A stretch of DNA of 64,000 nt from Kutzneria chonburiensis (GTDB lineage: Bacteria > Actinomycetota > Actinomycetes > Mycobacteriales > Pseudonocardiaceae): positions 5,890,001 through 5,954,000 of the forward strand of contig NZ_CP097263.1 of assembly GCF_028622115.1 (NCBI RefSeq), given 5' to 3'. The position numbers were made by a program, and so were the translations under genes. Positions 45,333 through 54,949 of this stretch are shown here, one piece after another; position 1 is the first letter of the stretch, and each line of letters starts with the position of its first letter. A model generated the notes under the pieces. It saw only the letters and a list, made by a program, of their open reading frames with translations. It ran no database searches and was not told the origin of the DNA.

Positions 45333-46946
45333 TCACGCCAGGGCGCGCACCCGCATCGCCTTGTGGGCCAGGGCGTCGCAGAGGGCCAGCCAGCTCGCCT
45401 CGACGATGTTGTTGTGCACGCCGACCGTCGTCCACTCGTGCTCGCCGTCGGTCGACTCCACGAGCACGCGGGTGATGGCGTCGGTGCCCGGGTGGTCGGT
45501 CAGGATGCGCACCTTGTAGTCGGCCAGCTCCACACTGTCCATCCAGGACAGGTGTGGCCGGAGTGCCTGGCGCAGCGCGGCATCCAGCGCGTGCACGGGA
45601 CCGTTGCCCTCGGCGGTGGCGATCACGCGCTCGCCGCCGACGTGCACCTTGACCGTGGCCTCGGACACGATCACGCCGTCCTGCCGGTGATCCAGCAGCA
45701 CCCGGTAGGACTCCAAAGTGAACGGTGGTTCGTCCACTTCGGACAGCTCGTTGCGCAGCAACAGTTCCAGCGAGGCATCGGCGGCCTCGAAGGACCAGCC
45801 CTTGGCCTCCAGCTCCTTCACCTTCTGCACGGCGCTGCCGACGGCGTCGGGCCGGCCGGCCAGGTCGAGCCCGAGCTCTCGTCCCTTGAGCTCAAGACTC
45901 GCCCGGCCGGCCATCTCGGTGACCAGGACCCGCATGCCGTTGCCGACGGTGGCCGGATCGATGTGGTTGTAGAGATCCGGATCCACCTTGATCGCGCTCG
46001 CGTGCAGCCCCGCCTTGTGGGCGAAGGCCGACGCCCCGACATAGGCCTGGTGGGTGTCGGGGGCGATGTTCGCGATCTCGGCGAGGGCATGGGACACGCG
46101 GGTCAGCTCGGCGACGGAGTCGGCGGGTACCACCGGCATCCCGAGCTTGGTCACGAGGTTCCCGATGACGGCGAACAGGTCGGCGTTGCCGGCCCGCTCC
46201 CCGTAGCCGTTGGCCGTGCACTGCACATGGGTCGCGCCGGCCTGCACCGCCGCGAGAGTGTTGGCCACCGCGCAGGACGTGTCGTCCTGGCAGTGGATGC
46301 CGACGCGCAGCCCGGTGCGGGCCATCACCTCGGTGACGGTCTGTCCGAGCCCGACCGGCAGCTGGCCGCCGTTGGTGTCGCACAGCACCACCACGTCGGC
46401 CCCGGCCTCGCCGGCCGCCTGGAGGACGCGCAGCGCGCACTCCGGGTCGTAGGCGTAGCCGTCGAAGAAGTGCTCCGCATCCAGGAAAACGCGGCGGCCC
46501 TGGGCCACCAGGTACCGGACGGTGTCGGCGACCATGGCGCAGTTCTCGTCGACGGTCGTGCGCAGCGCCCGTTCGATGTGCCGACGGTCGGACTTGGCCA
46601 CCAGCGTGACGACCGGGGCCTGCGAGTCGAGCAGGGCCTGCACCTGAAGGTCGTCCTCGACCTTCACGCCGGCCTTGCGGGTCGACCCGAACGCCACCAG
46701 CACCGCGTGCTTGAGCTCCAGCTCGCCGGCCGCGGCGCGGGCGAAGAACTCCGTGTCCTTGGGCAGCGCGCCCGGCCAGCCGCCCTCGATGAAGCCGACG
46801 CCGATGCCGTCGAGCAGGCGGGCCACGGCCAGCTTGTCCGTCACCGAATACGTGATGCCCTCGCGCTGGGCGCCGTCCCGCAGGGTGGTGTCGAAGACGT
46901 GGAAGCCGTCGCCCAGCGGCGTCCCGGCCGGTGTAGTCCTGCTCAA
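45333..46946 (-). CDS. cimA: (R)-citramalate synthase
   Basis: 537 residues. The HMGL-like TIM-barrel has VFDTTLRDGAQREGITYSV near residues 19-37 (catalytic Arg/Asp) and the metal-binding HCQDDTSCAVAN near 203. The C-terminal LeuA-type allosteric domain runs from about 400. The insertion FIEGGWPGALPKDTEFF is characteristic of CimA-type (TIGR00977) rather than LeuA. It condenses pyruvate and acetyl-CoA to citramalate, giving 2-oxobutyrate for isoleucine via LeuCD and LeuB. TTG 46946 follows AAGGAG. A transcription attenuator with an Ile-rich leader peptide precedes it. Confidence 0.92.
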   Translation of the reverse strand: MSRTTPAGTPLGDGFHVFDTTLRDGAQREGITYSVTDKLAVARLLDGIGVGFIEGGWPGALPKDTEFFARAAAGELELKHAVLVAFGSTRKAGVKVEDDLQVQALLDSQAPVVTLVAKSDRRHIERALRTTVDENCAMVADTVRYLVAQGRRVFLDAEHFFDGYAYDPECALRVLQAAGEAGADVVVLCDTNGGQLPVGLGQTVTEVMARTGLRVGIHCQDDTSCAVANTLAAVQAGATHVQCTANGYGERAGNADLFAVIGNLVTKLGMPVVPADSVAELTRVSHALAEIANIAPDTHQAYVGASAFAHKAGLHASAIKVDPDLYNHIDPATVGNGMRVLVTEMAGRASLELKGRELGLDLAGRPDAVGSAVQKVKELEAKGWSFEAADASLELLLRNELSEVDEPPFTLESYRVLLDHRQDGVIVSEATVKVHVGGERVIATAEGNGPVHALDAALRQALRPHLSWMDSVELADYKVRILTDHPGTDAITRVLVESTDGEHEWTTVGVHNNIVEASWLALCDALAHKAMRVRALA

Positions 46947-46987
46947 CGGTCTGCTCCTTGCGAGAGGGAAGCTGTAAGTGGCCCTGA

Positions 46988-47058
46988 AAAGCAAAAGACC
47001 CCCTGCGAATGCAAGAGGTCTGCGCGCCGGGTGCCGTCAGGGGCACTACCCGGCGCGC
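46988..47058 (-). promoter_or_regulatory. Transcription attenuator of cimA
   Basis: On the minus strand, a perfect 11-bp stem (GCGCGCCGGGT and ACCCGGCGCGC, 47022-47032 with 47048-47058) is followed by a second stem AGACCTC/GGGGTCT (47021-47015 with 47002-46996) and a TTTTGCTTTT run. The second hairpin is a classical rho-independent terminator located 42 bp before the cimA start. The first stem overlaps the last codons and stop of an Ile-rich leader peptide, so ribosome stalling would decide which structure forms. Confidence 0.75.
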
Positions 47059-47090
47059 TGCGCAATGATGATCACGGTGTGGAGAGCCAC
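47046..47090 (-). CDS. Leader peptide of the cimA attenuator
   Basis: Short frame reading MALHTVIIIAQRAG if it starts at GTG 47090, or MIIIAQRAG from GTG 47075. Three consecutive Ile codons (ATC ATC ATT) sense charged tRNA-Ile. A second mini-frame from ATG 47098 (MRVWLSTP) overlaps the inner GTG by four bases and could couple to it. No strong ribosome binding site is visible, so the true start is uncertain. Confidence 0.6.
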   Translation of the reverse strand: MALHTVIIIAQRAG

Positions 47091-47193
47091 ACCCGCATGC
47101 TGCCACACCCGGCCCGAACTGACCAAGCGTCGGACGAAACTTCCCACCAGTCGGGAATTTTAACCGAAACAGCCCATGACCGGTCCACCTTGC

Positions 47194-47217
47194 CGAAATT
47201 GGACTGGTCCAATTTCG
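47194..47217. promoter_or_regulatory. 24-bp perfect palindrome upstream of the Tm-1-like pseudogene
   Basis: Arms CGAAATTGGAC and GTCCAATTTCG separated by TG. The core TTGGAC-TG-GTCCAA is of the form bound by GntR-family (FadR/LldR-like) repressors. It lies 53 bp before the GTG of the broken gene and about 100 bp from the cimA leader start, on the opposite side. No GntR regulator is encoded next to it. Confidence 0.6.
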
Positions 47218-47269: not shown

Positions 47270-47937
47270 GTGGTCACTGTCGTCCTGCTGGGCGCGCCGA
47301 ACGCCGAAGGCGCCGAGTACGCCTGGCTGATGGACCGCGTCCGCGTCGGGGGCTGCGAGCCGGTCGCGCTCGACGGCGTCGGGGCCGCTGACGTCCTGGT
47401 CAAGCTGCACGAACAGGGCCGCTTACACGGCGTCCTGGCCGTCGGCGGGCCTACCGGCGGCTCCCCGCCTTCGCGGCCCTACGCGCGTTACCGATCGGGG
47501 TGCCCAAGCTGCTCGTCACCGCTCGGGACCACCACACCCACGGCGGCGTCACCGACGTCACCACCATGCACTCCGTGGTCGACATCGTCGGCATCGACCA
47601 GGTCTCCGAGCGCATCCTCGACAACGCCGCCGCCGCCATCACCGGCATGGCCCGCAGCTACCACGCCGGCCGGCACAACCCGACCCGCCACCACCGGCCG
47701 CTGGTCGCCACCACCGTGCCGGCCACCCGGCCCCGTCTCGAGCACTGGGGCTACGCCGTCGTCGTCGTGCCGGACAGCCGCCCGCTGCCGTCCCTTGTGG
47801 ACAGCGGCTTCCTCGCCGGCGTCATCTCCACCGACCCGGCCGCCACGTACGACGTCCCCCACGTGGTCTGCGACGACGCCGCCTTCGCCACCGACGCCGC
47901 CGACGACCTCCACCACGTCATCACCGGCTCCCCCTAA
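47270..47937 (+). pseudogene. Tm-1-like (UPF0261) ATP-binding protein, frameshifted and shortened
   Basis: The first ~62 codons (VTVVLLGAPNAEGAEYAWLM, later LHGVLAVGGPTGG) are in one frame. From about 47460 the continuation, LPAFAALRALPIGVPKLLVT and then TMHSVVDIVGIDQVSERIL, is in the -1 frame to 47937. These blocks match the Tm-1-like/UPF0261 family, normally ~400 residues; here about 220 remain. The family's N-terminal domain appears to have an internal deletion (after VALDGVG) and the C-terminal half is degenerate. One net base loss near 47450-47465 would explain the shift. Sequencing error could explain the frameshift but not the short length. Confidence 0.75.
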
Positions 47938-54830: not shown

Positions 54831-54917
54831 AAAAAACCCCCGTCAACCACACTCGAAACGTGGTCGAACGAGGGTCGCGCGCCGACGCGGACTCATGGTC
54901 CCTAGGCGTCGGCGCGC
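54831..54917 (-). promoter_or_regulatory. Transcription attenuator of ilvBNC
   Basis: On the minus strand, a 12-bp perfect stem GCGCGCCGACGC / GCGTCGGCGCGC (54906-54917 with 54877-54888) is followed by a terminator hairpin (54875-54860 with 54850-54837, roughly ACCCTCGTTCGACCAC against GTGGTTGACGGGGGT) and a run of six T at 54831-54836. The first stem overlaps the end of a Leu/Val-containing leader peptide. This is the classical ribosome-mediated attenuation layout known upstream of actinobacterial ilvB. Confidence 0.85.
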
Positions 54918-54949
54918 CTCGGAAGTACGAGGCCGGTGTCACGCAGCAT
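54902..54949 (-). CDS. Leader peptide of the ilvBNC attenuator
   Basis: 15-residue peptide MLRDTGLVLPRRADA. The regulatory codons CTC-GTA-CTT (Leu-Val-Leu) include GTA and CTT, which are rare in this GC-rich genome and should heighten sensitivity to charged tRNA levels. A TACCGT hexamer ends 7 bp before the ATG and there is no ribosome binding site, so the transcript is probably leaderless. Confidence 0.75.
   Translation of the reverse strand: MLRDTGLVLPRRADA

Follow-up and report, generated by a model that had tools for sequence, protein, structure and literature searches.

The window analysed here, a stretch of 64,000 nucleotides from Kutzneria chonburiensis, raises the question of whether and how cimA, the citramalate synthase gene, is tied to isoleucine supply through the leader that lies 5' of it. 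The leader is very probably a ribosome-mediated transcription attenuator letting charged tRNA-Ile control cimA. Such control was the core of the original prediction, and it is largely supported, at the level of sequence, by the Ile codons kept among relatives, the terminator and the co-occurrence of leader and cimA. If true, the citramalate route to isoleucine gains a feedback switch that senses charged tRNA-Ile alone.

The gene behind the leader (45333..46946, minus strand, TTG start) is cimA as originally named, matching TIGR00977 with 599.5 bits against a cut-off of 450. The same strand also carries leuB, serA, ilvC and ilvB further 5' of cimA. The whole element occupies 47126-46986 and, like all of its parts described below, is on the minus strand. 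Its leader peptide gene (47046..47090) runs from GTG at 47090-47088 to the stop codon TAG at 47048-47046 and encodes the 14-codon peptide VALHTVIIIAQRAG. The short frame with three consecutive Ile codons that had been predicted is thus present, the regulatory codons ATC ATC ATT standing at 47064..47072. The end of the frame is buried, again as foreseen, in a perfect 11-bp stem: the left arm A of stem 1, GCGCGCCGGGT (47048..47058), pairs with the right arm B, ACCCGGCGCGC (47022..47032), and the stem overlaps the last leader-peptide codons and the first base of TAG. A single spacer base at 47021, an A here that could pair with U 46996 to close the terminator, separates stem 1 from the terminator stem. 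The terminator hairpin (C and D arms, 46996..47021), AGACCTCTTGC-ATTC-GCAGGGGGTCT, has 11 pairs and is followed by the T-rich tail TTTGCTTTTC (46986..46995), so that by sequence an intrinsic terminator of the predicted kind stands between the leader frame and cimA. The 42 bp given earlier as its distance to the TTG holds when counted from 46988; counted from the final T of that tail (46987), the distance to the TTG (46946) is 40 bases. AAGGAG precedes the TTG at 46959-46954. When the region 46940-47125 was folded it beat 199 of 200 shuffles (z -2.93).

Conservation was followed in the best 80 of 134 relatives, ranked by protein similarity, all of them named loci; together with the Kutzneria window they form an alignment of 81 sequences. 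Within these best 80 of 134, the leader lies 5' of cimA in 80/80 loci and the closest named CimA relatives are from Kutzneria. Judged by their titles, nearly all of the 80 loci are from genera of Pseudonocardiaceae; one is titled Nocardia. The leader start codon falls in the same column in 81/81 sequences (ATG in 38, GTG in 43, preceded by C in 76), and the leader most likely starts at GTG 47090. The promoter directly 5' of this codon would also be part of the element. A presumed -35 box, TTGGTC (47121..47126), contains a nearly invariant TGG (T 81/81, G 80/81, G 79/81; the first T of the box in 56/81). Eighteen bases further in the window is a putative -10 box, CAGCAT (47097..47102), within the conserved stretch TGTGGCAnnAT (47107-47097); its positions 2, 5 and 6 are A in 76/81, A in 77/81 and T in 81/81, and six bases separate it from the GTG. 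A simple sigma-70 scan found no promoter site at the leader. Of the extent first proposed for the element, 46988..47098, the hairpins and the frame were confirmed; the start is more likely GTG 47090, and the promoter upstream belongs to it too. Long minus- and plus-strand frames that overlap the leader were taken as chance frames of G+C-rich sequence.

The regulatory triplet reads Ile-Ile-Ile in 69/81 leaders and still has two Ile in the remaining 12 (231 of 243 codons), so the expected retention of Ile codons, at least two of the three, is seen in 81/81. Within cimA bodies only about 2.5% of codons are Ile (1005/40000; first 500 codons of 80 genes). ATT makes up 120/231 of the leader Ile codons vs 42/1005 of those in the gene bodies. 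The Ile run is retained while leader codons 2-5 vary. Pairing and spacing were examined in alignment A1. The 81 sequences comprise 75 distinct leaders, and A1 uses 66 of these, near copies being left out by hand. Between start codon and stem there are 32 bases in 58 sequences, 29 in 7 and 35 in 1, so the length changes by threes; the stem 1 loop (11-30 bases) follows no such rule, and the terminator loop has 4-7 bases. The frame is open and varies like coding sequence, and the fixed start codon together with indels by threes argues that it is probably translated. Leader L010 (Kutzneria sp. CA-103260) has an earlier stop directly before stem 1 (VALHTVIIIS), the sole case among 81 and a natural variant of the element. 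From leader to cimA the gap is 9-110 bases in the 12 of 140 Pseudonocardiaceae genomes compared by eye.

Both hairpins are kept. Stem 1 and the terminator are separated by exactly 1 base in 66/66 distinct leaders, and 99.1% of stem cells in A1 are paired vs 39.9-58.8% with the partners slid. The terminator, whose persistence in close relatives had been named as a check, is paired in all 66, with 100% of cells in its 10 aligned pairs. Covarying hairpins had also been anticipated, and here the outcome is divided. None of 500 shuffles reached the paired fraction, the 33 cells with two-sided changes or the covariation score. Pairs with two-sided change (4 vs a shuffle mean of 2.5) were reached by 30/500, and the count of further pair types by 223/500. 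Since these two of five pair-change measures are not clearly above the shuffles, the covariation is real but modest. Three pairs of stem 1 show two-sided changes.

The attenuator would work as follows. RNA polymerase would start at the leader start codon, giving a leaderless message. With isoleucine plentiful, a ribosome at the stop codon would cover the left arm of stem 1, which could then not form; the terminator would fold and transcription would end before cimA. With isoleucine scarce, the ribosome would wait at the Ile codons just 5' of stem 1 and the stem would form. Lying against the terminator, stem 1 may hinder its closing, so that polymerase reads into cimA; this is the least certain step.

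Folding with a ribosome mask bears on the middle of this scheme. Stem 1 has a mean probability of 0.96 both without a ribosome and with one at Ile 1; this drops to 0.76 for Ile 2 and 0.41 for Ile 3, where the mask already weakens the stem, and to 0.00 for the stop. This order fits stem 1 as the antiterminating structure that is removed by a ribosome at the stop. The terminator has a mean probability of 0.92 without ribosome (minimum 0.00) and at least 0.99 at all four ribosome positions. In the folding model, then, stem 1 follows the ribosome position, yet pairing does not exclude the terminator, and because the terminator is at 0.99 or above in every masked case, thermodynamics alone gives no switch.

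A switch by pairing is what the classical trp-type arrangement, the textbook form of an attenuator, would offer: stem 1 would be a pause hairpin, and on stalling a separate antiterminator would share bases with the terminator. Many of 18 sequences inspected do have a weak alternative between the B and D arms, but no shared-base alternative is conserved. Keeping the left arm of the terminator unpaired costs 9.4 kcal/mol on average and 4.3 at least. Before the right arm is made, this left arm is mostly unpaired with the ribosome at Ile 1 or 2 (pairing above 0.5 in 0/66), the exceptions being 27/66 at Ile 3 and 2/66 without ribosome. Neither the alignment nor the folding yielded a conserved antiterminator that would use bases of the terminator, and no conserved helix of the transcribed part stood out in the 81 sequences besides stem 1 and the terminator. 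In 49/81 sequences the early leader can pair with the right arm of the terminator, which was taken as chance. The trp-type arrangement is accordingly judged unlikely here. The gap fixed at 1 base indicates that stem 1 of the cimA attenuator may interfere physically with the terminator. With so constant a gap (1 base before cimA, 0-1 before ilvB), a completed stem 1 may take up the space that the foot of the terminator stem would need in order to close within polymerase. How a hairpin without shared bases could prevent a terminator is a clean question, testable in purified transcription.

The leader goes with the gene. A covariance model, R1, was built from the cimA leaders and searched across genomes. 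In the 10.4-Mb Kutzneria genome it gives one strong match (E 5.4e-25) and one weak (15.5 bits, E 4.2). Among 150 Pseudonocardiaceae genomes it matches 141, of which 140 at E <1e-15, and CimA is encoded in 140/150, exactly those with the strong match. The other 10 have neither CimA nor the full leader, G430 having a weak, partial R1 match. Two genomes, G437 and G391, carry a second, more distant CimA copy each (61% and 72% identity) and one R1 leader per genome. Across a phylum sample of 296 genomes R1 matches 42 and CimA is found in 218; within the same class as the window the leader is present in 12/13 genomes of this sample with CimA. The R1 search finds no leader in G214, a genome of this class with CimA. 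Outside the class at least two genomes, G252 and G188 of family f30, have an R1 match immediately 5' of CimA. Of 31 R1 loci (L092-L122), 13 have CimA (at least 53% identity) and 10 have IlvB; two have distant CimA-like genes (28%), probably LeuA, and six are others, including plain hairpins by eye.

Beyond the class the hairpins differ, as judged by eye in small sets. The cimA leaders of f30 and f36 have three or four Ile codons, a stop, a stem and then a terminator about 2-6 bases on, so the 1-base gap is no general rule. In those of f48, f17 and f40 an Ile run is followed by a stem that has its right arm within the loop of a second hairpin; the two structures should therefore exclude each other, and no T-rich tail or terminator was seen in these leaders. 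This loop-overlap design was noted before distant cimA at L138, L141-L145, L147, L200, L201 and L222-L224. Among 60 upstream regions of distant cimA, hand-picked from the matches listed and non-random (f30, f17 and f48 are over-represented), an Ile run near a stop occurs in 13/60 on the sense strand vs 0/60 on the other; among these, L215 seems spurious, and L258 and L259 repeat genomes already counted. As distant families combine the run with other hairpins, the Ile run of cimA may be older than any one RNA design. The designs of f48, f17 and f40, with Ile run and stem 1 and no T-rich terminator by eye, would suit a leader that acts on translation or decay of the cimA mRNA in place of termination. 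For the leader of the window this is improbable, given a T-tailed hairpin in 66/66 of the distinct Pseudonocardiaceae leaders aligned.

A T-box or metabolite riboswitch, i.e. a leader that is not translated, is more improbable still. Both kinds of element regulate amino-acid genes, T-boxes having been described upstream of actinobacterial ileS (part of PMC1262725), but only tRNA reached its Rfam family threshold in the window. Near the leader Rfam gives just two hits, both to unrelated families (E 3.2 and 7.6), and the indels by threes and fixed start codon point to translation.

The same window holds a second attenuator of like layout, before ilvB (54831..54949, minus strand), with the predicted peptide MLRDTGLVLPRRADA. 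The gene call rests on NF005860/PRK07789 (1123 bits), a model that we take to be that of the acetolactate synthase large subunit. The leader frame has ATG at 54949-54947, Leu-Val-Leu at 54931-54923 and its stop at 54904-54902; a stem pairs 54918-54906 with 54888-54877, the terminator arms lie at 54876-54869 and from 54842, and the T tract extends to 54831. The layout was found in 29/30 Pseudonocardiaceae ilvB loci examined. In it a codon triplet is followed by two more codons and then by R-[AVT] codons within the stem, which stands 0-1 base from the terminator arm; the cimA leader, with its gap of 1 base in 66/66, shares this actinobacterial ilvB-type layout. Before ilvB the gap is 0 or 1 base in 41/43 loci (gaps of 0-4 searched; the other two unread). 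Five ilvB leaders were taken from f2, of the same order and presumably mycobacterial; three were recognised, with stem 1 adjoining the terminator by eye.

The codons differ between the two genes. The ilvB triplet, read in 28 of the 30 loci, is Leu-Val-Leu in 23, Leu-Val-Ile in 4 and Ile-Val-Leu in 1. When the comparison was widened to a four-codon run and more genomes (1 of 43 loci, L178, being left out), Ile was present in the ilvB run of 10/10 genomes without cimA vs 8/32 examined with cimA. These 32 are those read of the 140, and five were picked as close relatives of cimA-less genomes. The Fisher value, about 4e-5 as computed on 8/31, should not be taken at face value, as the cimA-less genomes are not independent: mapping the absence of cimA onto an IlvB tree takes 4 changes, of which well-supported branches force at least two. 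The ten cimA-less genomes fall in few lineages and represent perhaps two to four events, not ten. In f5, which we guess to be Streptomyces, the ilvB leader L196, from a genome with CimA, has an Ile codon in its run, which counts against a strict division of labour between cimA and ilvB.

Leaders of the same layout occur before further genes. Two or three Ile codons precede a gene of the Glu/Leu/Phe/Val dehydrogenase family in four Pseudonocardiaceae genomes (L183 in G315, L184 in G379, L185 in G334 and L186 in G401). The gene at L183 (1150-2409) has domains PF02812 and PF00208, and NCBIfam matches are below cut-off for all four loci. By eye, L107 and L120 have Leu runs in the same layout before probable leuA genes. 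One actinobacterial layout can hence be recognised before cimA, ilvB and the dehydrogenase-family gene, and probably leuA.

The class of mechanism and its ilvB form are already known; the cimA case appears to be new, as none of the open-licence PMC papers listed is, by title and abstract start, about a cimA attenuator, in line with the original reading, which knew of no such description. Actinobacterial ilvB leaders resemble the cimA leader in having branched-chain codons, a hairpin and a terminator with a U run (parts of PMC1262725 and PMC8079986). The 2005 actinobacterial survey names no cimA leader in the portion available (PMC1262725), and the table of 8 Streptomyces lividans leaders in the part available of PMC8079986 has no cimA or citramalate entry, whereas f5 genomes here carry a cimA leader. 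The S. lividans IlvL peptide, MRTRILVLGKRVG, ends in R-V-G and is reported as leaderless (same part of PMC8079986). The available part of PMC13236596 describes, for ilvB1 of Mycobacterium tuberculosis, branched-chain codons in a small upstream frame, an intrinsic terminator, and a hairpin prevented by a ribosome at the stop codon, the logic proposed here for cimA; that system has mixed Leu-Val-Ile codons before ilvB, in contrast to Ile only before cimA. Changing its LVVI to AAAA gave low reporter expression that was unchanged with chlorflavonin dose (PMC13236596, same part). Earlier work cited in PMC1262725, in the portion available, found regulation unaffected when codons of the ilvB leader of Streptomyces coelicolor were changed, which counts against the model of sensing by Ile codons. 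The ilvB-II motif of Corynebacterium likewise has an upstream frame over the first stem and then a terminator, but its proposed antiterminator, the right shoulder of the terminator with the loop of the first stem (part of PMC10272879), is not conserved in cimA leaders.

If the Ile switch of cimA does stand beside a mainly Leu/Val switch of ilvB, a pathway of shared enzymes would answer its three end products separately. A wider reading can be offered tentatively and is on balance doubtful: in Actinomycetota, a set of branched-chain leaders with one layout and exchangeable codons, Ile-only for cimA and mainly Leu-Val for ilvB, in which the ilvB run has an Ile codon where cimA is lost, with a cimA Ile run older than any single RNA design and, in the class of the window, a steric antitermination free of base sharing.

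Ordinary intergenic terminators are common, but that these hairpins merely end a neighbouring upstream gene or are plain 5' structure, with the Ile run due to chance, is hardly credible, since the nearest family-matching frame upstream, part of UPF0261 (47500-47934, plus strand; PF06792, E 1.4e-12), is oriented opposite to cimA, the T-rich tail shares the strand of cimA, a residue as sparse in cimA as Ile fills at least two of three codons in every leader, and the conservation of the leader contradicts the upstream-gene reading. A plus-strand frame at 47270 matched no Pfam or NCBIfam family. The region 47270-47937 (plus strand) is perhaps one shifted, decaying gene. Also 5' of the leader, at 47194-47217 of the window, is the palindrome CGAAATTGGAC TG GTCCAATTTCG, a possible operator of the plus-strand gene.
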